The position numbers and the translations under genes are program-made. A DNA stretch of 64,000 nucleotides from Zygnema cylindricum (Eukaryota; Streptophyta; Zygnematophyceae; Zygnematales; Zygnemataceae): contig JBBHKE010003248.1 in the NCBI GenBank assembly GCA_037447655.1, positions 197,007 to 261,006 on the forward strand, read 5' to 3'. The stretch's first letter is position 1. Every line of letters starts with the position of its first letter. The notes under the pieces are model-generated. The model did no database searches, was not told the DNA's origin, and saw nothing but the letters and a program-made list of their open reading frames with translations. Positions 29,401-51,599 of the stretch are shown piece by piece.

Positions 29401-30832
29401 CTCCTCAAAACTAGCAGTAAAGACTCCTTCCCTAGTGCTAGTAAAAAAACCCTTATCATCTAATACGGATGTAGAGATGAGGTTTTTGTTCAGCTCTGGA
29501 ATAAACAATACATCGGAAAATGTTACTATGGATGTCTTTCCTTCTACTAACACTTTCAAATCTACCGATCCTACAAGAGTAGTGGTGACTATCCTCCCAT
29601 CCCCGTACTCTATCTCTACGGTGGGAATATTTCTTATCTTTGTGAACAGGTGCCTATCCTTACACATGTGCATGGAGGCACCTGAATCTACAATCCAACT
29701 TGCTTCACCTTTCAATCCACCGTAAGCACATTTATGCCCTCGTGGTATTTCGACCTCGTTTTTCGCCTCCAACTCCTCATCCAAAAAGAGCTCATCGTCC
29801 TCGTCCTCAGATTCCGCCTCATGTACTTCTGTCACAAGGGCCTTTTTCTTTCCTCACGGGGTACCACCGGTCTGCCCCTCTTTTAACCGAAGCTCGATTA
29901 GCTTAGTGCAGTCTGCCATAGAGTGCCTAGGTTTCTTACATAAATGACATAAACCTTTGGGAGCCCTTGGTCCGAACTCGTCGGTCTGATTTTTCAGCTC
30001 CCTCCCTCCATAGTTTCCGACCGGTTTCCGTGAATCCTTGTTCCTCCAATCGGTCGCAGTTGCCAAGGCTTTGCCACTCTTTCCTCCCCTTCAGATCTTA
30101 ATCGTATTCTCCCGAACGAGAATCATCCTTACCACTGAGTTCCTTGCAAGTCCTACACACGGTTGACTAGGTTCTCGAACTCATCAGGTAACTTCATCAA
30201 TAAACAGTTAGCTTTTTCTTTTTCACTTAAATCTTTTCTCGCACTCTCTAACTCCATGAAGAGTGTAGTAAGCTCATTGCAAAAATCCAACATCTTCCCC
30301 CCTTTGTATACATACTCCTTAACTTTATGATCAGCCAACTGTTGTAGTTGAATCGTACCACTTCGGTACATCTCTATGAGAGCCATCCAAAGATCGGATG
30401 CCCTTTCTACCTGCAAATGAGGACATGGAAGTCCTTGAGTGAGATGGCGTAGGATGAAGTGCTTTGCTGCCATATTGTTGAAGTCCCAGGTTTCAGTATC
30501 ATTCTCCTCGTTCCTCGGAATAGATGACATGAATGCAGAACCAGTTGTTATTGGTGTGGTCGCCTCCTTCTCCTTTCCTTTGTCCACCACCTCTCCTTCT
30601 TTTGTTTCCTCCGTTGAAGGTGGATCCTCTTTCCTGGTGAATTTGCTTCCTCCAAACCCTAGAGGAATTCCAAGACTCGATGGACGCCCCTACCGTCCAC
30701 TCACTATCCCCCAAAACCTTTTTTGGCATAGAGCTCCTATCATCATACTTTCCCAGTATATGAAGCCAGTTCCATTAAATATTGGTACCCTAGAGGGTGG
30801 GCCCATAACCTGAAACTCTGAGACCTCCATAA
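26474..30832 (-). pseudogene. Copia element A3: gag-pol, broken
   Basis: Family A. Read downward: gag from ATG 30832 in the LTR (MEVSEFQVMGPPSRVPIFNG), capsid at 30153-30590, zinc knuckle (CHLCKKPRHSMADC; the usual Gly is Arg) near 29905-29950, protease and integrase at 29077-29835 (WIVDSGASMHMC, MMWHKRLGHVNLDKL), integrase core at 28798-29010 (SDNGGGYTSNQF; frame ends before AERLN), linker at 28046-28478, RT at 27345-28049 (KWVFKLKLNPDNT, HQMDIKTALLHGELEEE, YVDDLLILS) and RNase H at 26487-27335 in one frame. At least six frame breaks occur. RT and RNase H catalytic motifs are otherwise well kept. Confidence 0.9.
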
Positions 30833-31565
30833 GTCCTCAGAGTGGACAGCTTCCAAGAAGCCTCTAGGATAACCGTGACCCTTTGTGTTGCAGCAAAAAT
30901 AACTGCCACCCTGGCAGGCAATAACTCTCACCAACTTCACCACTATGAAGGCAAGACTCCCCTGAGTGAATAGCAAAAAGAATCTTTGAATTTTCTCCCC
31001 TGAACAGTAAGTTATGGAGGGTCAAAGTTGACCTTTTGTACAAAAGCTCTTTGGTAGAGAGGGTCCTATCTCCTAATTTTTCTAAGTCCTATCTCTCTCA
31101 CAGACTTTACCTACTGATGTATGGAGCCAATTAGAATATAGTTCCGTACACAAAAGTATAGTTGCCGGTGTACTTTCTGTACAAACAATGTACGACATGG
31201 CCTAAATGTCGACACGTGGTATGTTCGGATTCGCTCCTTTAATCCTCAGAGATGCCGCGATCCAATGTCATTCCGCCACGTGTCATCCGATGTGGCGATG
31301 ACCACAAACCGTCGGAATCCTCTTCCGTGATCTCAGCGTTAATTCCGACCGTCCGATTTAATTCACATTTAATTGTAGCCGTAATAAATACATGCGCGTT
31401 ATTCGTTTCATTAGAGAAATAAATGAGCGGTATTCGTTTCTTATCTGTACCATAATCCGTACTTTTACATTACCGGATCTATGTATCCCGTAAATAGTTA
31501 TAGTTAAATGAATTATTCTATTTGGTAATGTTTAATTAATTATCAAACCATGTAGTACGTAACAC
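30746..31565. repeat. 820-bp perfect direct repeat, copy 1
   Basis: It covers the start of A3 gag, the PBS and the first 755 bp of the A3 5' LTR. It is identical base for base, as far as I compared, to 37686-38505 (offset 6,940). Identity starts at TACTTTCCCAG and ends at CGTAACAC. Here the copy is joined to gypsy-1 instead of the rest of the LTR. Confidence 0.93.
30799..30810 (-). other. A3 primer-binding site
   Basis: GGGCCCATAACC on the + strand, within GGTGGGCCCATAACC, matches plant initiator tRNA-Met around the anticodon over 15 bases. A duplicate stands at 37739-37750. Confidence 0.88.
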
Positions 31566-32320
31566 ATTTAGAGAAGCTTGGAAGGGTAGACTTGGTGATC
31601 GCTAGATGGCGTTGCCAGAGGTATTCGTTAGCGGGACAGGGCAAGGGACACCAAGATGCCCGTAGCAGAACAATTTTTCAAATGACTCAACTGATAATAA
31701 GGTTACATGAACGCGAAGACACACCAGTGGGGTACGTTTGGTAAAACCTTCACCCCATAGATGATAAAAGGAAACAGGTAGTCAACAATTACAACCAAGT
31801 GACCAAGGTTTTGGGGACTCCCATAGTTTTTGATGCAGCTCAGGTCGGATCAAGAGCCCACCGAGTTTGGGCTTATTGGACCAGCTTGGCTCCACTTCCC
31901 GTCCTCCAACAACTGTTGGAAACAAAGGTTCCGGATTCCCAATATCACAGTTCAACAAAATCTCGGACCAGGGTGAATGGCCACCCCTGTGACCACAACC
32001 GACCAAACACCCTTTTTCGGTTACAATAAACCCGAGAATCCACGAAGGGCCCTACCGACCCTTGTATCTTTCCCTAACAGCCATGCTTACCAAAAAAGCG
32101 CACCAGGAATGATTTTTGATAGTACGACCGCTACTTGGACGGCACCAAGTATTAAGGAACGGGAACAAGCAATGGGATTTTGACCGGCAACCACAGCAGC
32201 ACTAGGGGTCTCGGCCTCAAAAATGTGCAGTTTAATCGGGCAAAGTATGGATTTGAATGCAATTTCATGGGTGCTGCAACATTCTTTGTTATTCTCCAGC
32301 CTCATGTCTTTAAAGTCACG
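31566..32320 (+). pseudogene. DNA cytosine-5 methyltransferase domain inside gypsy-1
   Basis: One frame reads a C5-methyltransferase core. It has VDLVIARW-RCQ-RYSLAGQGKG then DARS (motif IV; catalytic Cys at 31613-31615, the usual preceding Pro is Arg). Next is PVGYVW-stop-NL (motif VI ENV; the Glu codon is TAA at 31742-31744), then TPIVFDAAQVGSRAHRVWAYW (motif VIII, 31820-31879). After frame changes in the target-recognition part come APSIKEREQAMGF (motif IX-like, with TGA after it) and LIGQSMDLNAISWVLQ (motif X-like), 32140-32290. Motif order is canonical, unlike permuted plant DRM enzymes. Motifs I-II are cut off by the 31565 junction. It sits directly before RT, so it is a retrotransposon-borne domain, now inactive. 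Confidence 0.82.
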
Positions 32321-35298
32321 GGAAACATACCTTCAAGCTCCACTGTTGTTAGTCGTGCAAGCAACTCTACAGCTTGAGGTGGGGAGAGAGACAAGAAGAA
32401 TAAAATTCAGCAAATCACATTCAGAGAAAACACTGAACCCAGGAGTTTCCTCGGTGGGGGGGAGCGGAGGCACAGAACAGGGCAGCGTAGGGGAAGTTGT
32501 CAGCAGTAGCGTTTTAGCAGCTGGGCAAGGGGCAGACCCACAGGTAGAACAGGAATTCGACTTTCCACCTTTGGGGTTGGCCACCGGAAGTTTGGAGGTA
32601 GTAGAACCTAGTAAGAAGGACTGGGGGAACAGCTAGAACCACAACAAAAGGCCAAGTTCTCAAAGCTATTAGAGGAGAACGGGCAGGTGTTCTCCTGGTC
32701 TGACACAGATGTAGGGATCTATAAGGGGACCCCTTTTCTCATTGACCTTACCGATGAGACGGTGACTGTTTGGCAGAAAAAGTACCCTCTCACCTTCAAG
32801 GAGAAGGAGTTCATCACGGCCAAGGTGCAGACTTTGGTGGACGCGGCACTGGTGCAGGAAAGTACAGGGCTATATGGGTTTGCCTCTCCAACAATGCTTC
32901 CGCCCAAGAAAGACCCGTCCGGGGAAACGATAGATTTTAGGATTTGTGGGGACTATCGGATGCTTAACACGGCTACCATCTCTGACCGTTATCCCATGCC
33001 CACCCTGGAAGAGATCTTCAACTCTGTCGCTGGGGCCAACATTTACTCTACTTTGATATGAAGAATGGGTTCCACCAGATTGCTATGGAGCCTAGGCACC
33101 GAGAGAGGACTGCTTTTTGGGCCGGGTCCAGGTTGTATGAATGGATGTACATGCCATTTGGCCTCAAAAATACACCCGCCAAATTCCAACGAGCCATGGA
33201 CGAGGCTCTCCGGGGAATCGATTGGGCACGGTGTTACATCGACGATGTGATAATTTTCTCCAAGACATTCGAGGAACACTTGGAGCATATACATATAGTT
33301 CCACGGGCTCTCGAAGCAGCGGGCTTGAAGTGTCACCCGGGGAAGGGCATTTTTGGAGTGCAGAAAATCATTTATCTGGGTCATGAGGTGACTCTTGGGA
33401 TAGTTGGTCTCCACATGGTTAAGGTTGCAGCCCTTGACGCCCTTCCACCCCCGCAGGAAATTTCTGCTCTTCGCACTTTCCTAAGACTAGCCAACTATTA
33501 CCGGAGGTTCATTCCCGAATTCAAAAGCCACGCCCAGCCATTGAATCAATTATTGCGAAAGGACCAGGAGTGGTAGTGGGCGGAAGAACAACAGACTGCT
33601 TTTCAATTCGTGAAGGATTCCCTCAAGCAACATCCTTGCTTCGGATGCCCAATCACCAACGGCCTTTCCTCCTTTATAGTGATTGGAGCAGGTTCGGATT
33701 GGGAGCAGTGTTGGCTCAATTGGACGATGCAGGGGCTGAGTACGTGGTGGCCTACGCAAGCCGGAGTAATAACAGAGCCGAGGGGGATTACAGCATTAAC
33801 CATGGGAAATTAGTGGCTGCGGTGTGGGCCATCCAGCATTTTAGGCCTTACCTCTATGGAGTAAACTTCACCCTTATTACGGATCATCAGCCATTCAAAT
33901 GGATAATGGAGAACAGTAAGTTGACCGGCAAGCTGGCCAGATTGTTTCTCATCTTACAGGAATATGACTTCAGCATTATCCACCGAGCCGAAGAGATCCA
34001 TGGAAATGCGGACGGACTCAGCTGGAATCCAGACCCTTCCACCAAAGACTCTACAGCTCAGCCTGAGACTTATCTGGGCTTCATCTGCCTTTATTTGGCT
34101 GCCTCGAGCTGAAGGGGAACTGTCAACCTTTGCTGCAGACGTGGAGGGGTAGGCTCCCATTAGAGCCGGCCGCAAGGATATTTGGAATTCCCTTAGGTCT
34201 ATCCAAAAAGGATCCCCTCTTCCCCACCTGGCCGGAATTCATTTGTCCCGGGTTCATACCCGGATGGCGGCGTATGAATGGGACCGAGGCATTCTTCTCA
34301 GAAAATGGGCCGATGGTACAAGGAAAGTGGTTCCTCCTCCGGCAGATCGGGAAACCCTCATTGTTCGTCTTCACCAGCAATGCGAGCACTTCGGACAGAA
34401 ACGGACCACCTCACTGGTCACAAGGTTGTATTGGTGGCATGGGTTGCGGGCCCAGGTCAATCATGTGGTGCAGACGTGTCTTTCCTAAGACCAGATGAAA
34501 GTTGCTTTTGACAAAAAGGGGGGAACGGAACTTCACTCCCTCTTTATCCGGGGATGTTTTACAAATGGTCATTGGATCTACTGGGACCACTACCCACCAG
34601 CCGGAGGGGAAACCGTTTTGTACTGGTAATGATTGAACACTTCTCCAAATGGATCGAACTGGTGGTTCTCCCCGGAAAGGTATCTAAAGCAATCGCGGAA
34701 GCATTCTTGCAGAGGGTGCTGTCCCAATTTTGAGCCCCGTCCAAAGTTCTGACTGATCAGGGATCTGAGTTTGCAAGAGAATTTTCTAACCTTTTGGAGA
34801 AGTGCTTCATAGACCACCGGTTGACGAGCCGAGACCACCCACAGGCCGACGGTTTGGCCAAAAGGTGCGTCCAGACAGTGAAGAGGTCAATACAAAAATA
34901 TGCAGTAGAAGAGGATTTAGGGGAATGGGACAGGCGGGTGCCTTCGATTGCTATGGGATATGGATTCACTATGCAAGCCTCCCTCCATTCCTATAGCCCT
35001 TACTTCATCCTCTTTGGCCGACATCCCATCTTTCCCGGAGCTGCATCGGCTCAGGTGGTTGTAGTTCCAGAGATGGACAACCGGGGAACTATGGAGAAAC
35101 TGATTACGGACAGGGCCAAAGTATTCCACTGGGAAATGCCTCTGGCTATAGGCAATTTACAGGCTGCTCAGCACAAGGATCAGCTTTGGTATTCCCAACG
35201 CGAAGTGGCAATTTTGTCCCTCGGCAACGACGATTTATGCCCGGGGATTTCGTGTATCGCATGCAACAGAAGAATGACACTTTGGACATTTCGGCTGG
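32321..35298 (+). pseudogene. Gypsy-1 RT, RNase H and integrase
   Basis: After a linker with stops, RT runs 32687-33576 with one stop near 33058: YPLTFKEKEFI, SPTMLPPKKD, FRICGDYRMLN, FHQIAMEPRHRERTAF, PAKFQRAMDEAL and the catalytic CYIDDVIIF, then YLGHEV and LRLANYYRRFI. RNase H is at 33570-34060 (YSDWSRFGLGAVL, SRSNNRAEGDYS, TDHQPFKW, GNADGLS). The active-site Glu of GELLA is Lys (HGKLVAAVW). Integrase follows from 34130: a zinc region ending in VVQTC, a first catalytic Asp in SLDLLGPL near 34570, a second in VLTDQGSEF (34750), and Lys instead of the catalytic Glu (HPQADGLAKRC). It is interrupted by the 10-N gap. Confidence 0.9.
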
Positions 35299-35308
35299 NN
35301 NNNNNNNN
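35299..35308. other. Assembly gap (10 N)
   Basis: Ten unresolved bases between the integrase end and a segment holding gag and protease. True spacing, order and orientation across it are uncertain. Confidence 0.99.
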
Positions 35309-37685
35309 GTGAGGTTAACAGCTCTAGACGAACAGGACAACCAGCCTTTCTTAAGGCTTGTCGCTGTATTATAAAGCACCGATACCGACCCCACAGTTAG
35401 CATCTGTCGAAGCAGAATACTGTCTCCGAGCTCTACGCCAACTTGTCGCAGTCGCCCCAAATTAAAAAGTTTGTAGCGTTAAGGCACTTAAGTAACTAAC
35501 GTCAAAACAAGGTAAGCCATATTTCCTCAGGGGTACGCAGGTTTTCTCACCACGTTCCTCAAGCCAACCGGTGGTAGGCCCACCGGCGGAAACGCCGGAT
35601 AGCCGCCGCAGTATTCCCTCTTACCGCCACTTTCACTATGGACATGAAACTGCTGGCCCAAGGAAGAGCCTATGTTAACCTTCTGCAGGGAGGATAGGCC
35701 GCAAAGGCGGCCACCCGGATGGTGGCCAACCGAACTCCTTGCACCACTCTTTTGGACGCATGGGGACTCCTTTATACCGAATGGAACAAAACTGCAATCA
35801 ATGAATTCACGGAATTGCGATGTTTGAAAAATTAAACCCCGCTGACGCTGTTCAACCGCATCTCGAGCCTCTGTCATAAGACGAAGCTGTCTACGATTGA
35901 CACCCCAGCCATAGCCACGAAATATTATGTCGCTGTTCGGAATTCTTTCCGACCAACAGGACAAGCAGATCTCGACAATTGGAGTGCCATTCAGGCAATC
36001 CACGACTCGGAAACAGCAGGAGCGCAGGCACGGAGGAGGGGGAAGGGACCGCACGCCGGTCACAAAAGAAAATTATAAACCTACTCTTCGCTCCAAAACC
36101 ACTAAAATGTCTCAATCTTAGTTAAGAAAAATCAGACTTCATAAATTTGATGATGCTTAGATCTCTAATGAGTTAAGAGAGAGGTACACCATTGAGGGGT
36201 CAAAATGTGAGGCTTGTGGGTTCATAGGCCATAAGAAAGGGCAATGCTTCCAAAAGAATAGGGTCCCCAAAAAAATGATGCAATATGCTTTGTTCACAAG
36301 CAAGGGGGAAACAACCGTTAATCCTTTGCCATTACAACTTTTGTATCCCTGTGGACTTCGATCTCCATATGAACCGGGACCAAGTAACATAAAGCCGGAA
36401 CACATCATTCAGTAGCAAAGCACTCAACTGGTCGCCATGGCAGCAAAATTGGCCGCTCTCCGCTTAGGATCAAAAGCCCGCACATCTCCAACTCTAACGC
36501 ACGCTCAAAAATTGCATAAACATAAACAAGAACTGCTACGAAAGCTAGCGGAGCTGGAACAGCACACCACGGTGGGTGGAGATGATAATGACCTCATGGG
36601 TTGGGATATGGAGCCTCCAAAGGCTCATCGTGCTCGAACATTTCTGTCCGGAGCTTGGAACGTAAGAGTCGAGGACAACCGCAGGCAACTCCCCTCTATC
36701 GCGTCTTCACAGAGAAAAGACAAACAGCCGATGGAACCAAAGGACCACAGTCGCAAGGCCACCGGTCCTTCATCCTTCACACCACGAGCTGTCTTGTTGA
36801 ATAGTGACGTTGGGCTGGGTTGAAAACGGACCCATCCGCCTCCTCCGGCTCCAAATAAACTTCCTCCTTGATTCGAGGGTTACAAGAAAACACAACCGGA
36901 AAAGGATGCTTCAACCACCGAAACAGACAAAGAATAGTTCGACCGATACTTGGTTGAAAGACCAACAGTAGATCCACCAATAACACCTCCAATAGGGAAC
37001 TCTAACGCAGAAGATGAAGAAGCAAAGGGGGGAGGGGGGACAGGAGAAATCGGAAGACGAGGACTCACCCATTTCATCACCTAAAGCTCACCTTCCTTCT
37101 TCCAAACCGGCACTTGTGTTAGTACGACACCTGATGCCCTACGCCTTGACCCACGTTAAAACCCTAGCTTCCTCCCACAATTTTCCCAAAAAAATCTTCA
37201 TTCAGACACTAGGGGAAGAGATTCACACCAGGAGGGAAAGGGTCACGTTGGTAGAACCACCCAAGACAGTCTTTATGTCGGCAGAACCGAAAACTTCTAT
37301 GGCAGATAGAGATTATAAGGCCCTGTCAGTGGCTCTTATTCTTAATACGACAAGAAATTTTAAACTTAATGGATACGGCGTGTATCAAGATGCAGTGGTG
37401 GATACGGGAGCCCTCCCTAATCTCATAACCACCTCAGAATTACAAAAAATGCCCAAATAAAAACGACCAAAAATCAGTCCCAGTAAAATATACCTAAGTA
37501 CGGTCAGCAGTGGGAGCCAACCAATATATAGCATCATTAAAGCAATGGAAATCAAATTGGCGGATGACGCAAGCCAACATGTACAAATTCAGCTCCCCTT
37601 TCTCGTGGTGGAAGTTAAACAATTTGAAATTCAGTTGGGTATGGCTACATGGAAAAGGTTGAACATGGAGTTGAGCATGTGGAAG
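35309..37685 (+). pseudogene. Gypsy-1 gag and protease, displaced 3' of integrase
   Basis: Gag-like sequence (LLYTEWNKTAINEFTELRC, ATKYYVAVRNSFRPTGQAD) lies at 35640-36060 with stops. A zinc knuckle CEACGFIGHKKGQC is at about 36211-36252 (CX2CX4HX4C), then a basic linker open at 36437-36823. A retropepsin active site DAVVDTGALPNLIT is near 37390-37432, with a C-terminal LPFLVVEVKQFEIQLGMATW near 37600-37655. In a normal gypsy gene order this part precedes RT, here it follows integrase, so the element is circularly permuted or mis-scaffolded. It ends at 37685 in the second copy of the 820-bp repeat. The first 300 bases after the gap are unassigned. Confidence 0.75.
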
Positions 37686-38505
37686 TACTTTCCCAGTATA
37701 TGAAGCCAGTTCCATTAAATATTGGTACCCTAGAGGGTGGGCCCATAACCTGAAACTCTGAGACCTCCATAAGTCCTCAGAGTGGACAGCTTCCAAGAAG
37801 CCTCTAGGATAACCGTGACCCTTTGTGTTGCAGCAAAAATAACTGCCACCCTGGCAGGCAATAACTCTCACCAACTTCACCACTATGAAGGCAAGACTCC
37901 CCTGAGTGAATAGCAAAAAGAATCTTTGAATTTTCTCCCCTGAACAGTAAGTTATGGAGGGTCAAAGTTGACCTTTTGTACAAAAGCTCTTTGGTAGAGA
38001 GGGTCCTATCTCCTAATTTTTCTAAGTCCTATCTCTCTCACAGACTTTACCTACTGATGTATGGAGCCAATTAGAATATAGTTCCGTACACAAAAGTATA
38101 GTTGCCGGTGTACTTTCTGTACAAACAATGTACGACATGGCCTAAATGTCGACACGTGGTATGTTCGGATTCGCTCCTTTAATCCTCAGAGATGCCGCGA
38201 TCCAATGTCATTCCGCCACGTGTCATCCGATGTGGCGATGACCACAAACCGTCGGAATCCTCTTCCGTGATCTCAGCGTTAATTCCGACCGTCCGATTTA
38301 ATTCACATTTAATTGTAGCCGTAATAAATACATGCGCGTTATTCGTTTCATTAGAGAAATAAATGAGCGGTATTCGTTTCTTATCTGTACCATAATCCGT
38401 ACTTTTACATTACCGGATCTATGTATCCCGTAAATAGTTATAGTTAAATGAATTATTCTATTTGGTAATGTTTAATTAATTATCAAACCATGTAGTACGT
38501 AACAC
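37686..38505. repeat. 820-bp perfect direct repeat, copy 2
   Basis: It is identical to 30746-31565. Here it continues without a break into the rest of the A3-type LTR, so this is the natural context and copy 1 is the one joined to foreign sequence. Confidence 0.93.
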
Positions 38506-38804
38506 TAGTTCTAGACTTAACGGCTAAGGCTACCGTCTACCGGCTGTCTGTCGGCCGGTAGGTAGCAGGATCAAATCCTGTGACCGGCATATACCATTTA
38601 GTAAATAAACTCCAAACTAATATATATTTCCCGTAAACCTCTAGATAGCCTAAGTAGCCATGGCTCTAGCTCCCTCTCCAATTTCTCAATGACTGCGACA
38701 AGTTGGATAGTTGGAGAGAGAAGTTAGAGGTAGACTACCTCGGCTTCTTTCTATATTTCTATTTAGACCTAGAAAATACTTAAAATGGACCATTAATTTC
38801 TACA
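37751..38804 (-). repeat. A3 LTR, complete copy (5' LTR on minus strand)
   Basis: TGAAACTCTGAGACC ... TTTCTACA, 1,054 bp, with the tRNA-like module at 38513-38582 (TAGACTTAACGGCTAAGGC; GGATCAAATCC). It borders gypsy-2 directly at 38805, so A3 or its progenitor integrated in, or recombined with, the methyltransferase region of gypsy-2. Confidence 0.9.
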
Positions 38805-39500
38805 TCCTCCAACAACTATTGAAAACACATGTTCCAGATCCCAACATTATAGTTCAACAGATCCTCGGACCAAGGCGAATGGCCACTCCTGTGACCCTGC
38901 CGAGTGAACCCTCTTTTTCGGTTGCAATAAACCCGGGAATCCACGAAGGGCCCTACCGACCCTGGTATCCTTCCCTAACAGCCATGCTTACTAGAAAGGC
39001 TCACCAGGAATGATCTTTGACAATGCAACCGCTACTTGGACGCCACGAAGTATTGAGGAACGGGAAGAAGCAATGGGATTTTGACCGGCAACCACAGCAG
39101 CACTAGGGGTCTCGGCCTCAAAAAGGTGCAGTTTAATCGGGCAAAGTATGGATTTGAATGCAATTTCATGGGTGCTACAACATTCTTTGGCATTCTCCAG
39201 CCTCCAGTCTTCAAAGTCACGGGCAACATACATTCAAGCTCCAAAGTTGTTGGCCATGGAAGTTACTCTACAGCTTGAGGGGGGGAGAGAGGCAAAAGGG
39301 AAAAATTCTGCAAATTACATTCAGAGAGAACACTAAACCCATGAGTTTCCTCAGTGGGGGGGAGAGGAGGCTCAAAACAGGGCTGCTTAGGGGAAGTTTT
39401 CATCGGTAGTGTTTTAGCATCTAAGCAAGGGATAGATCTACAAGTAGATCTAGAATTCGACATCTCCCTTTAGGGTCGGCCAGCGGAAGCCTTGGCGGCA
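38805..39500 (+). pseudogene. Gypsy-2 methyltransferase C-terminal part
   Basis: It starts inside the methyltransferase, at the base corresponding to about 31901 of gypsy-1 (CCTCCAACAAC). It keeps the target-recognition segment (VAINPGIHEGPYRPWYPSL in one frame) and the motif IX/X end (ATWTPRSIEEREEAMGF, TGA, then LIGQSMDLNAISWVLQ). The TGA after MGF is at the same codon as in gypsy-1. The catalytic half is missing, removed at the A3 LTR junction. Confidence 0.75.
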
Positions 39501-42240
39501 GTGGAACCCGGGAAGATGAACTAGACTTTAAAGGAACAGCTAGACCCACAGCAGAAGGCACGGCTCTCCAAACTGTTAGAGTACAGCAGGCAAGTGTTCT
39601 CGTGGTCTGACAGAGATGTAGGGATCTATAAGGGGACCCATTTTCGCATTGACCCGACCGACGAGACGGCGACTGTTTGGCAAAAATAGCACCATTTCAG
39701 CTTCAAGGAGAAGGGGTTCATCACCGAAAAGGTGCAAACTTTGGTGGACGCGGGGCTTGGGCAAGAAAGTACAGGGCTACATGGGTTTGCCTCTCCAACA
39801 GTGCTCGCGCCAAAGAAAGACTTGTCTGGGAAAATGGTAGATTTCGGGATGTGTGGGGACTATCAGATGCTCAACTCGGCAACTATCTTCGACCGTTATC
39901 CCATGCACACCCCCGAAGTGATCTTCAACTCTCTTGCTTGGGCCAACATTTACTCTACTTTGGATATGAGAAATGGGTTTCACCAGATTGCAATGGAGCC
40001 AAAGCACCAAGAGAGGACCCCTTTTTGGGGCGGGTCCAGGTTGGTTAAATGCCTGTATATGCCTTTTGGCCTCAAAAATGCACCTGCCAAATTCCAACGG
40101 GCCATGGCGAGGCCCTCCAGGGAATCGATTGCGCACGGTGTTACATCGACGATGTGTATATTTTCTCTAAGACATTCGAGGAACACTTGGAGCATATATA
40201 GATCGTTTTACGGGCTCTCCAAGAAGCGAGCTTGAAGTGTCACCCGGGGAAGGGCATTTTTTGGGTGCAAAAAATCATTTATCTAGGGTCATGAGGTGAC
40301 TCCTGGGATAGTGGGTCCCCAAATGGTTAAGGTGGTAGCCCTTCACGCCTTTTCAACCCCGTAAGACATTTTTTCTCTTCGCACTTTCCTGGGCCTGGCC
40401 AACTATTACCGTAGGTTTATTCCCGAATTCATTAGCCATGCCCAACCATTGAATCAATTATTGCGGAAAAACCAAGAGTGAAAGTGGGCGGAAGAACAAC
40501 AGACTGCTTTCCAATTTCTGAAAGATCCCCTCAAGCAACATATAGTGCTTTGGATGCGCGATCACCAGCGACCCTTCCTCCTTTATACTGATTGGAACAG
40601 ATTCCGATTGGGAGTAGTTTTGGCTCAGTTGGACAATAAAGGGGCTGAGTACGTAGTGGCTAACGCAAGCCGAGGGGAATTACAGCAGTTACCATAGCAA
40701 ATTACTTGCCGCGGTGTGGGCCATCGAGCGTTTCACGCCTTACCTTTATGGAGTACACATCACCCTTATTACCGATCACCAGCCCCTCAAATGGAAAACG
40801 GGGAATAGTAAGTTGACTGGCAAGCTGGCCAGATGGGTTCTCATCTTGTAGGAATACGATTTCAGCATTATCCACCGAGCCGGGAGATCCGTGGGAACGT
40901 AGACGGACTCAGCAAGAATCCAGACCCTTCACCACAAACTCTACAAGGGCGCTGCACGATGAAGACCCCGAGCTCAGCCTATGACTAATTAGGGCTTCTT
41001 TTCCCTTTATTTGGCTACCTCGAGCTGAAAGAGAACTGTCAACCTTTGCTGTAGACGTGGAGGGGCACGCTCCAATTGGAGTCGGCCGCTAGGATATTTG
41101 GAATGACCCCGATTCCCTTGGGTCAATCCAAAAAGGTTCTCCTCTTCCCCACCAGGTCGGAATTCACTTGTCTCGGGTTCATACCCGGATGGTGGCGTAT
41201 GAATGGGACCGAGGCATTCTTCTCAGAAAACAGGCCGATGTTAAGAGGAAAGTGGTTCCTCCTCCAGCAGATCGTGAAAACCCTCATTGTTCGCCTTCAC
41301 CAACAATGCGGGCACTTTCGACAGAAACAGACCACCTCACTGGTCACACGATCGTATTGGTGGCATGGGTTGCGGGCCCAGGTCAATCCTGTGGTGCAAA
41401 CGTGTCCTTCTTGTGACCGAGTAAAAGTTGCTTTTGAGAAAAAGGGTGGAACTGAACTTCACTCTCTCCCCATCAAGGGGATATATTACAAATGGTTATT
41501 GCATCTACTGGGACTACTTCCCACCAGCCGAAGGGGAAACCATTTTGTATTGGTAATGATTGAACACTTCTCAAAATGAATCAAACTGGTGGTTCTTCCT
41601 CATAAGGAATCCAAAGAAATCGAGAACGCATTCTTGTTGAGGGTGCTGTCCCAATATGGAGCCTCGGTTGAAGTTTTGACTAATCAAGGTCCGAGTTTGC
41701 CGGAGAATTTTCTAACCTTTTGGAGAAGTGCCTCATTGACCACGCGTTAAGCAGCCGAGACCACCCCCAAGCTGACGGTGTGGCCGAAAGGTGCATACAG
41801 ATATTGAAGCGGTCACTACGGAAACATGTAGTGGAAAAGGATTTAGGAGAGTGGAACAAACGGGTGCCTTGGATTGCCACAGGATACACATTCAGTAGGC
41901 AACCCTCCCTTCATTCCTACATACCTTACTTCATTCTCTTCGGCCGCCATCCCATCCTTCTTGGAGCTGCACCAGCTCATGCGGTTCGACTTCCAAAGAT
42001 GGACAATCGGGGGACTGTGGAGAAGCTGACTGCCGACAAGGCCAAGGTATTTCACCGAGAAATGCCTCTTGCTTTGGGCAAGTTACAAGCTGCTCAGCAC
42101 AAAGATCAGCTTTGGTATTTGCAACGCGGAGCAGCAATTATGTCCCTCGGCAACGGCGATTCATGCTCGAGGATTTCGTGTATCGCATGCAATAGAAGAA
42201 TGACACTTTGGACATTTCGGCCGAACAGGTGATTCTGAAA
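39501..42240 (+). pseudogene. Gypsy-2 RT, RNase H and integrase
   Basis: RT at 39700-40235 (SPTVLAPKKD, GDYQMLNSAT, NGFHQIAMEPKHQERTPF, PAKFQRAM), frameshifted before CYIDDV at 40140. RNase H (YTDWNRF, GAEYVVA, TDHQPLKW) spans 40570-40860 with the same Glu-to-Lys change as gypsy-1 (HSKLLAAVW). Integrase is at 41076-42232: zinc region HQQCGHFRQK ... CPSCDRVKVAF, GNHFVLVMIEHFSK, DHPQADGVAERC (catalytic Glu kept). The first catalytic Asp is His (WLLHLLG) and the second is Asn (VLTNQG). It is homologous throughout to 32640-35298. Confidence 0.9.
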
Positions 42241-42552
42241 GTAGTGGAGGTCTCTAACAAAGGGGCTTTGAACTTGGAAGGTAAGAATGGCCGCAAAATT
42301 AAGGAAAACTAGATCAATGTTGCTCCTTGCCATCTACAAGGGCTAGAGGACGAGCCCACTTTCCACATCACTTACTTTGTAGATCCACCCCCGTGCTCCT
42401 CTGCTTGCAATGTGACTTCTTTGTCTGGCTTCCTGTTGATGTGTGATCGCTGTCATCAATGGTGGCATGACTTCTGCTTGTCGCCGACTTGGGAGTACCG
42501 CTCTCAAACCACAAATGCGTGGTTCTGTGAGGAGTGTGAATTTGGCAGCTAA
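42241..42552 (+). pseudogene. Gypsy-2 integrase C-terminus with PHD finger
   Basis: Downstream of the integrase core the frame reads a GPY/F-like tail (GALNLEGKNGRKIKEN, one TAG, INVAPCHLQGLEDEP) and then a PHD finger from 42394 to the TAA at 42550-42552. The metal-ligand pattern is CSSAC, MCDRC, H four residues on, DFC and WFCEEC: Cys4-His-Cys3 with the aromatic Trp before the last pair. PHD fingers bind histone H3 tails, so by analogy with chromodomain integrases it may steer integration. In gypsy-1 this region falls in or beyond the gap. Confidence 0.82.
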
Positions 42553-42597: not shown

Positions 42598-42858
42598 TGA
42601 ATTTGGGGGGGTACCGGGTACCTTCATACTTTTCACTCGCTCCCTCATTATTACCCATGCATATCCTTTGGGAAAGAAGGGACAGAAAAGGGCATGGTCA
42701 CGCATCCGGAACAGCATTTGCATTTAGAGTGGATTGCATGTCTTCTATGCACGTCTTTTCGGACATCTCCCCTAAACCTCCCGGTTTTCAGGACTCTAAT
42801 GCACTCTATTGTTGGAGGTAGGCCCTTCTCCTATGTTTCCAAGGCACGCTCGACAGCT
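42598..42858 (+). repeat. Direct repeat after gypsy-2, copy 1 (putative LTR start)
   Basis: It begins AATTTGGGGGGGTACCGGGTACC and is repeated with moderate divergence at 44028-44288 (offset about 1,431). It follows the putative polypurine tract, so it is probably the beginning of the gypsy 3' LTR. Confidence 0.55.
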
Positions 42859-44027: not shown

Positions 44028-44288
44028 CAAAATTTGGGTGGGTACGTGGTACCTTCATACTTTTCACTCGCTCCCTCATTATTACACATGTATATCCCCG
44101 GGGGAAGAAAGGGACAGAAAACGACATGGTCACGCATCTAGAAGCGCATCAGCATTTAGGGTGGATTCCAAGTCTTTTATGCACACCTTCTTGTACATCT
44201 CCCCTAAACCTCCCGGTTTCCAAGACTCCAGTGTACTCTATTTCTGGCGGTGGGCCCTTCTCCTATGTTTCCTAGGCAAGCTCGACAA
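44028..44288 (+). repeat. Direct repeat after gypsy-2, copy 2
   Basis: It matches 42598-42858 (TACCTTCATACTTTTCACTCGCTCCCTCATTATTAC-type sequence, GGGACAGAAA, CTCCCCTAAACCTCCCGGTTT) and diverges after GCTCGACA. Confidence 0.7.
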
Positions 44289-47923: not shown

Positions 47924-48769
47924 ATGCCTTCAAGAGAAGTTGAAGTGAACCTAAATTCTGCGAAAGATTTGAAGCGCGGAAAACTTTTTGGCAAGCAGTC
48001 ACCGGCAGCTCTTGTAAGTGTTTCTGGCAGCAGTCAGCGGCAAGCATCTCGAGCCTGCACAAAAGGGAACGCCGACCCTGTATGGAACGAGCAGTTCATT
48101 TTTACAGTTGACGAGAGTGTATTGCTTGGTCGCAGTCCCACCGTAACCATTCAAATATTTAGTTCTTCCAACTTTCACGAGTCTCCTTTAGGTACTGCCT
48201 ACGTGTCTCTTACGTCTGCTGTCAACAAAACTGGAGAACTTCAGTTTGGCGATCACAGAGTATATCGGCCCAGTGGACGAGTTCAAGGTCATGTTAATGC
48301 TTCTGTAAAGGTTACTGGTCCAAAGTTTTCAAGTGAACAGCTGGAAAGTTCAAAGAATGCGAACCAGGCACAGCATCAGCCGCCACCACAACCTTATGGG
48401 ATGTCAGGTTATGGAGCTCCATCGGCACAATATTCACCTTACGGTTCTGCTTATGGATATCCTCAAGGACCACCACCACCGCAATATTACCAACCTGGAT
48501 ATGGTCAGCAGCCACAAGTTGTATACGTACAGAGAAACGGAGGCGGCTATGGAGGCGGTTATGGTGGTTATGGTGGTGGAAGTAGGTTTGGAGGTGGACG
48601 AATGGGAGGTGGAGGAATGGGAGGTGCTGGCATGGGCATGGGTGCTGGTTTGCTAATGGGAGGTCTTGGAGGGTTAGCGTTGGGAGAAGCTCTGGACAAT
48701 GATTGTGGAGGTTGTGGCGGAGGTGGATGTGGTGGAGGTGGATGTGGTGGTGGGGGATGTGGCGGTTAG
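47924..48769 (+). CDS. SRC2-like C2-domain, glycine-rich protein (281 aa)
   Basis: Single open frame from MPSREVEVNLNSAKDL to a stop after a CGGGG tail. Residues about 4-132 form a C2 domain (LFGKQSPAALVSV, NADPVWNEQFIFTVD, LGTAYVSLTSAV), the membrane- or protein-binding fold of plant SRC2-like proteins. The loop acidic residues that bind calcium are mostly missing (GKQSPAA for the usual GKSDPY; SSNFHESPLG for the third loop), so binding is probably calcium-independent. Residues 145-205 are Pro/Gln/Tyr-rich, 206-222 Gly-Tyr, 223-255 Met/Gly with a hydrophobic GLLMGGLGGLALG, and 259-281 repeat CGGGG. No intron is needed. A convergent paralogue lies at 50740-51594. SRC2 homologues act in membrane trafficking and stress; that role here is inference. 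Confidence 0.88.
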   Translation: MPSREVEVNLNSAKDLKRGKLFGKQSPAALVSVSGSSQRQASRACTKGNADPVWNEQFIFTVDESVLLGRSPTVTIQIFSSSNFHESPLGTAYVSLTSAVNKTGELQFGDHRVYRPSGRVQGHVNASVKVTGPKFSSEQLESSKNANQAQHQPPPQPYGMSGYGAPSAQYSPYGSAYGYPQGPPPPQYYQPGYGQQPQVVYVQRNGGGYGGGYGGYGGGSRFGGGRMGGGGMGGAGMGMGAGLLMGGLGGLALGEALDNDCGGCGGGGCGGGGCGGGGCGG

Positions 48770-50739: not shown

Positions 50740-51594
50740 TTAACCACCACAACCTCCACCTCCACACCCTCCACCTCCACATCCTCCACCTCCACATCCT
50801 CCACCTCCACCACCTAAAGCTCCTCCCAAAGCAAGTCCTCCAAGACCTCCCATCATTAGACCAGGGCCCATTCCCATTCCTCCACGTCTACCGCCACCTA
50901 AACGGCCTCCATAACCACCATAACCACCATAGCCTGGACGTTGTGAAGCGTATACGACTTGAGGCCTCTGATTATAAGTGGGCTGATATTGTTGTGCTCG
51001 AGGAGCTTGAGAATATCGAGTAGGAGGAGGACCATTTTTGTACACTAGTGGATGACCACCAAAGACTGGTGAATTTCCTGAATTCATGTAATTTTGAGCT
51101 TGCTGAGGAACTAGAGGAACTTTTGGAGGTTTCATTCTTTCCAACTGCTCATTGGAAAATCTTGGTCCACTGACTTTGACTGAAACTTTAACCTTTCCAG
51201 TGATACGGTTTCTGGATTTGTACACATTATAGGAACCAGATTGAAGTTGATCAACATTAAGTACAGCTCCTGTAAGAGGTACAAGAGCTGCACCTATTTC
51301 CCTGTCTTTGAAGTTATCTGAGCCGTAGATTCTGACAACTAAGATAGGATTGTGACGTAACAACGCTTTTTCGTCGACTCTGAAAACGAACTGCTGATTC
51401 CAAACAGGATTGTTGTTGCCCTTCAAGCTTCCTACGCAATGATTTTCTTTTCCATTCAAGCAGGATTGTGAGTATTGCTTCACGTCAGTGCCAGGAAATT
51501 CGAGAAAAGCTGCCGGCCATTGCTTGTTGACTAGCTTTGACCAGCTCAGATTCGTAGCTGAGATCAAGTTCACTTCCACGAGTCTGGAAGACAT
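50740..51594 (-). CDS. SRC2-like C2-domain, glycine-rich protein, paralogue (284 aa)
   Basis: Starts MSSRLVEVNLISATNLSW and has the same architecture as the gene at 47924: a C2 domain (residues about 5-150) with NNPVWNQQFVFRVDEKALL, IGAALVPLTGAV and VKVSVKVSGPRFSNEQLE, then a Pro/Gln/Tyr-rich stretch, GGYGGYGG, MGMGPGLMMGGLGGLALGG and a CGGGG tail. An insertion of about 20 residues with two extra Cys (SCLNGKENHCVGS) sits in the C2 domain before NNPVWN. As in its partner, the loop Asp residues for calcium are poorly kept. The two genes are tail-to-tail, 1.97 kb apart, an inverted duplicate pair. A TTTAAA 127 bases upstream on its strand (51722-51727) might serve as TATA. Confidence 0.88.
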   Translation of the reverse strand: MSSRLVEVNLISATNLSWSKLVNKQWPAAFLEFPGTDVKQYSQSCLNGKENHCVGSLKGNNNPVWNQQFVFRVDEKALLRHNPILVVRIYGSDNFKDREIGAALVPLTGAVLNVDQLQSGSYNVYKSRNRITGKVKVSVKVSGPRFSNEQLERMKPPKVPLVPQQAQNYMNSGNSPVFGGHPLVYKNGPPPTRYSQAPRAQQYQPTYNQRPQVVYASQRPGYGGYGGYGGRLGGGRRGGMGMGPGLMMGGLGGLALGGALGGGGGGCGGGGCGGGGCGGGGCGG

Positions 51595-51599
51595 TTGCT

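Follow-up and report, generated by a model that had tools for sequence, protein, structure and literature searches.

Did a Ty3/gypsy retrotransposon at this locus carry its own DNA cytosine-5 (C5) methyltransferase and, if so, of what type was the enzyme and did it belong to the element? A sequence-only reading had placed such a domain between the protease and the reverse transcriptase (RT) of a gypsy element. The window, which is the whole stretch of 64,000 nucleotides that was analysed, is a eukaryotic sequence rich in transposable elements, with Copia sequences that read mostly on the minus strand and two copies of a Ty3/gypsy element on the plus strand. Two C2-domain genes are also present. 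They form a pair in opposite orientation (47924-48766, plus strand, and 50740-51597, minus strand; PF00168) with Gly/Cys-rich tails, and presumably resemble SRC2; this likeness and the style of the Copia sequences would point to a plant. A search with the C2 protein gave 121 candidates, none of which reached an E of 1e-3 or below, and scanning the window for Rfam families and for tRNAs returned no matches. Gypsy copy 1 starts at 31566 and is cut off by a gap of 10 N at 35299, and copy 2 can be recognised between 38805 and approximately 42550. The features of both copies and of their borders are the following:

30746-31565, minus strand: Copia fragment, made up of 65 bases from inside the LTR and 755 bases of an LTR of about 1,050
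31566-31900, plus strand: N-terminal half of the methyltransferase, copy 1; motifs IV, VI and VIII in frame 2, motifs I-III missing
31902-32300, plus strand: C-terminal half of the methyltransferase, copy 1; in frame 0, with IX/X-like motifs and a stretch resembling a target-recognition region, homologous to copy 2
32301-32640, plus strand: linker between methyltransferase and RT, copy 1; open, in frame with the C-terminal half (open reading frame 32184-32636)
32986-33576, plus strand: RT, copy 1 (PF00078, E 8e-22)
33438-34112, plus strand: RNase H, copy 1 (PF17917, E 1e-30)
34560-34841, plus strand: integrase core, copy 1 (PF00665, E 4e-12); the integrase goes on to 35298
35299-35308, no strand: assembly gap of 10 N; the sequence lacks the last part of copy 1 and with it the place expected for a PHD finger
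36200-36247, plus strand: gag-type CCHC zinc knuckle CEACGFIGHKKGQC, seen by eye and put to copy 2 by position
37398-37430, plus strand: protease-like DTGA motif VDTGALPNLIT, seen by eye and put to copy 2 by position
37686-38804, minus strand: Copia leader and LTR within the copy 2 methyltransferase region, where they take up the place of the N-terminal half
38805-39180, plus strand: C-terminal half of the methyltransferase, copy 2; DNMT3 profile match at 39049-39180 (E 0.15)
39690-40235, plus strand: RT, copy 2 (PF00078, E 1e-7)
41055-41579, plus strand: integrase H2C2 zinc-binding domain, copy 2 (PF17921, E 1e-12)
42217-42549, plus strand: end of the integrase followed by a PHD finger, copy 2 (matched by Pfam at 42403-42537)

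The Pfam matches of copy 1 place RT, RNase H and integrase in the domain order of Ty3/gypsy LTR retrotransposons, and by eye an RT-like reading begins, in another frame, from about 32650. The two copies are 83.6% identical over 3,442 aligned columns, and the second of them repeats the C-terminal half of the methyltransferase from 38805, as had been read from the letters. The placing between protease and RT held only in its latter part: the methyltransferase does lie ahead of RT, but a protease motif was seen upstream of copy 2 alone, in an open reading frame for which Pfam gave no match, and a protease looked for upstream of copy 1 was not seen. No gypsy LTR pair was found in the window, the ends being missing where the gap and the Copia fragments lie. 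Directly after the gypsy coding end there is a direct repeat of 257 bases (42600-42855 and 44031-44287, 85% alike), which may be an LTR or 3' region of gypsy, accompanied by a further remnant.

The motifs of the enzyme are given here under their C5 methyltransferase names (IV, VI, VIII, IX, and X), and frames are expressed as the coordinate modulo 3. In the translation of 31400-32800 they follow one another in the canonical order, in agreement with the sequence-only reading: a motif IV-like stretch at 31589-31636 reading RCQRYSLAG, a stop codon at the Glu position of motif VI just after 31741, a motif VIII-like FDAAQVGSRAHRVWAYW at 31829-31879, EREQAMGF within 32154-32180, and LIGQSMDLNAISWVL at 32232-32276. 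That reading had put them in a single frame, however, whereas motifs IV to VIII are in frame 2 and the IX/X-like motifs in frame 0. No motif I, the S-adenosylmethionine site, stood out in the window in searches with DNMT3A and the DNMT3 profile, and the preserved part starts after it. An Arg replaces the family Pro before the catalytic Cys of motif IV, a stop directly after EREQAMGF is common to both copies, and the methyltransferase is interrupted by stops in both and by a frame change in copy 1 as well. Both copies are dead and no working enzyme is left, which bears out what had been said of copy 1 on the strength of its Arg and its motif VI stop.

Nearly all of the methyltransferase signal is carried by the N-terminal half, which is present in copy 1 only. 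With a DNMT3A catalytic domain identical to PDB 5yx2 as the query, tblastn (BLOSUM45, with the low-complexity filter and composition correction off) finds its best match in the window at 31565-31936 (E 2e-5, the second-best being 0.55), and phmmer agrees on that place (E 2.1e-5, next 6). A DNMT3 profile built from 57 sequences likewise has its top match in the six-frame window at 31562-31900 (E 8.1e-6), and when the residues of the N-terminal half were shuffled 20,000 times no shuffle reached 22.6 bits with this profile (15,122 of them scored, the highest at 8.4). The next-best place for the profile is the C-terminal half of copy 2, a weak match that falls on the right part of the profile (232-275), while the same half of copy 1 (E 1.9) lies below one unrelated place in the window (1.4) and is not significant alone. 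The general family was less telling: the search against PF00145 that had been proposed as a check matched motif IV only (E 0.061) at 13.2 bits, short of the curated cut-off of 22, a miss that can result from the decay of the copy. Pfam gave no family for the C-terminal half of either copy at E up to 10. Searched against the PDB, the N-terminal half brought up HhaI alone, over motif IV (E 0.15), and the C-terminal half of copy 1 brought up no methyltransferase. Among proteins of about 69-219 residues, a range that takes in no polyproteins, none of 10 candidate relatives of the N-terminal half had an E up to 1. In viral contigs, 18 and 5 stretches fitted a pattern and none was confirmed as a relative of either half.

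These results bear on two alternative views of what the remnant is. The shortfall against PF00145 and the PDB results would be compatible with a chance resemblance in decayed non-coding DNA, however, we find this hardly credible for a place that is the best of the window with both DNMT3A and the DNMT3 profile, is colinear with them, and was equalled by none of the shuffles. It is also conceivable that a C5 enzyme of bacterial or viral type was captured independently and that its likeness to DNMT3 reflects convergence or long-branch attraction. The catalytic motif has the form CQ..S as in HhaI (CNDLS in DNMT3A), and a profile of 79 HhaI-like bacterial sequences matches motif IV (E 2.8e-4), scoring 15.5 bits over this motif only in the six-frame set and 17.2 bits in the comparison with 20,000 shuffles, of which the highest reached 7.6. 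As this profile also beats all shuffles, the choice of DNMT3 rests on a higher score and a longer reach: phmmer at the same place gives DNMT3A 19.7 bits over motifs IV-VIII and HhaI 13.1 over motif IV only. Among the queries tried, those of DNMT3 alone align on through motif VIII, whereas the bacterial ones end after motif IV, which disfavours a purely bacterial type and makes independent capture unlikely. DNMT2 scores 2.5 bits there (E about 6) and the best five DNMT1 matches listed are all elsewhere in the window, both queries being fragments that span motifs I-VIII. The tree that the earlier reading had called for gave a partial answer, in that the window row joins 23 DNMT3 rows (94/93) in a tree of 49 rows, on a long branch (3.05), and these rows comprise neither plant DNMT3, nor DRM, nor CMT sequences; the score comparisons likewise lack plant DNMT3 and CMT. 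On these scores and this placement the methyltransferase appears closer to DNMT3 than to HhaI-like enzymes, DNMT2 or DNMT1. The claim that the gypsy element carried a C5 cytosine methyltransferase is thus upheld by the DNMT3A search, the DNMT3 profile and the shuffles, and can be sharpened to an enzyme of DNMT3 type. DRM, the rearranged DNMT3 of plants, has motifs VI-X ahead of I-V; the order found here is unrearranged, and the window enzyme is therefore not a DRM. Unrearranged Dnmt3 is set apart from DRM in the literature as well (PMC5890265).

Differences between the two copies were used to look for traces of selection, with substitutions per codon position counted in seven segments and tested in three (p values uncorrected). 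They are unevenly distributed over third, first and second positions in RT (35/20/14, p 0.006) and in the integrase end (43/31/23, p 0.04), and evenly in the C-terminal half of the methyltransferase (15/13/13, p 0.91), where the test is weak and a near-identical tract lies inside. In the linker, the RT start, the RNase H and the first part of the integrase, where frames change, no strong lean was seen by eye except in the RT start, with 31 of 69 in one phase. Given the even codon positions, the copies offer no sign of selection on the enzyme and no evidence of its activity. The near-identical tract (32167-32275) has one mismatch to copy 2 in 109 columns, exceeds all 500 permutations (longest 85), and may be the product of gene conversion; it holds the shared stop after EREQAMGF and lowers the power of the codon-position test.

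Does the methyltransferase belong to the element? In both copies the C-terminal half is collinear with RT and lies at an equal distance from it, and in copy 1 this half runs open into the linker before RT. That copy 2 carries this half in the same position as copy 1 indicates that the domain belongs to the element. A fragment of a host DNMT3 pseudogene could instead have come to adjoin gypsy by chance and been copied along with it later; host DNMT3 genes exist in non-flowering streptophytes (PMC6453930), and the N-terminal half is seen once, beside a truncated Copia LTR. We consider this very unlikely, however, in view of the shared spacing, the open frame, and the same arrangement in gypsy-Dnmt3 elements already described (PMC5890265). 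The left junction of copy 1 calls for more caution. The Copia fragment at 30746-31565, of which the 65 bases from inside the LTR are inferred to be leader, is 100% identical to 37686-38505 over 820 bases, forming a direct duplicate that encloses 6.1 kb, whereas elsewhere in the window these Copia stretches have matches that are 72-89% alike. A recent duplication, a conversion or an assembly artefact could account for the exact duplicate. It stops exactly at 31565, where the methyltransferase starts at 31566, and the junction may therefore itself be artefactual; because copy 1 begins at the end of the Copia duplicate, motifs I-III and any protease of this copy are lost. An assembly chimera, in which the sequence left of 31566 was joined through the identical Copia stretch, is a real if lesser possibility, to which the 10-N gap at 35299 also lends some weight. 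Such a chimera would affect only what lies left of 31566, while the continuity of 31566-35298 is backed by copy 2 from 31902 on, and it is compatible with a methyltransferase belonging to the gypsy element. We also asked whether copy 2 had been cut by the Copia element whose LTR lies from 25422 on; this was not supported, since the five bases before 25422 differ from those after 38804.

At the other end of the polyprotein, copy 2 bears a PHD finger (PF00628, E 9.3e-9, 35.6 bits against a cut-off of 24), which shares by eye the frame of the integrase end, with one stop in between. Within a single pol region, copy 2 thus combines what remains of a DNMT3 with a PHD finger; the finger is seen in this copy only and the equivalent place in copy 1 falls in the gap. 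PHD structures in the PDB match it (best E 1.2e-6), and these matches mix many PHD proteins, pointing to no one histone ligand. No chromodomain was matched by Pfam in the pieces scanned.

Retrotransposons with a Dnmt3 are not new. KnitGypsy-Dnmt3 of the charophyte Klebsormidium nitens is a Gypsy LTR element whose Pol contains an intronless, unrearranged domain of Dnmt3 type (de Mendoza et al., 2018; PMC5890265), and the earlier suggestion that the window element is of this reported kind agrees with that description. The likeness, drawn by description, is that of a Dnmt3 within the Pol reading frame; the Klebsormidium domains keep key residues with Ka/Ks below 0.2, whereas the window version is decayed, lies in two frames and is dead in both copies. 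The term "PHD" is absent from the main text of that report, whereas copy 2 has the finger. Its enzyme test was inconclusive for Klebsormidium, and SymbioDIRS-Dnmt3 enzymes were found to methylate CG de novo in yeast (PMC5890265). SymbioDIRS-Dnmt3 and SymbioLINE-Dnmt of Symbiodinium are likewise DNA methyltransferases encoded by retrotransposons, however, these are DIRS and LINE elements rather than gypsy, and the SymbioLINE enzymes form a lineage specific to Symbiodinium that is not Dnmt3 (PMC5890265). A study from 2025 restates the occurrence of retrotransposon DNMT3 in streptophytes and dinoflagellates (PMC12344493). The naming of the LTR elements with DNMT3 conflicts between the two reports, being Copia in PMC12344493 and Gypsy, for Klebsormidium, in PMC5890265.

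A gypsy element with a DNMT3 being already known, what is added here is the PHD finger that follows the copy 2 integrase, which the sequence-only reading had not mentioned. Chromoviruses, which are Ty3/gypsy elements, have a chromodomain after the integrase (PMC3605345), where the window element has a PHD finger. The nearest PHD precedent that we found in the literature is Ginger1-9_HM, a Hydra family of Ginger1 DNA transposons, which have a gypsy-type integrase, with a C-terminal Ulp1 and PHD (PMC2836005); it is a DNA transposon, however, and neither RT nor a methyltransferase is named for Ginger1 in the available text. The available parts of PMC3286476, PMC7602945, PMC2836005, and PMC5408684 contain no description of a PHD finger in a gypsy polyprotein. 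The main text of a survey of plant LTR elements (PMC6317226) uses neither "methyltransferase" nor "PHD", "methyltransferase" does not occur in PMC10508981, and "DNMT" does not occur in PMC9033089. A limited literature search, which covered few subscription journals and no bioRxiv preprints, found no report of DNMT3 and PHD in one LTR element.

Overall, we regard it as highly probable that the window holds two dead copies of one Ty3/gypsy family in whose polyprotein RT was preceded by a DNMT3-type methyltransferase and, in copy 2 at least, the integrase was followed by a PHD finger. The element would have had the order gag, protease, DNMT3, RT, RNase H, integrase, and PHD, with gag and protease placed by motif only. 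PHD fingers read histone H3 tails. In living relatives, the methyltransferase, released from the polyprotein or held in it, would have methylated the DNA copy of the element or the DNA at the landing site, and the PHD finger would have guided integration through such reading. By analogy with known elements, methylation of the cDNA or of the landing site in the living ancestor may or may not have occurred, with the balance close to even, and PHD-guided integration is a suggestion to which we would give about equal weight for and against. For DIRS elements, cDNA methylation on reverse transcription has been suggested, perhaps to pass as self or to resist editing (PMC5890265). More tentatively, and on balance doubtfully, the copies may represent a gypsy lineage of land plants, the host being a guess, that combined a DNMT as writer with an integrase PHD finger as histone reader, choosing the chromatin in which it landed and marking its own DNA.

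That retrotransposons should bear a silencing enzyme of their host is a puzzle: does methylation hide the elements, protect them or restrain them? A further gypsy example that also carries a chromatin reader would extend this alliance beyond the alga and dinoflagellates reported in 2018. If the host were a land plant, a published absence would be overturned. The pairing of a DNMT3 with a PHD module would also allow a joint role of the two, in the choice of the target and in its marking, to be tested.
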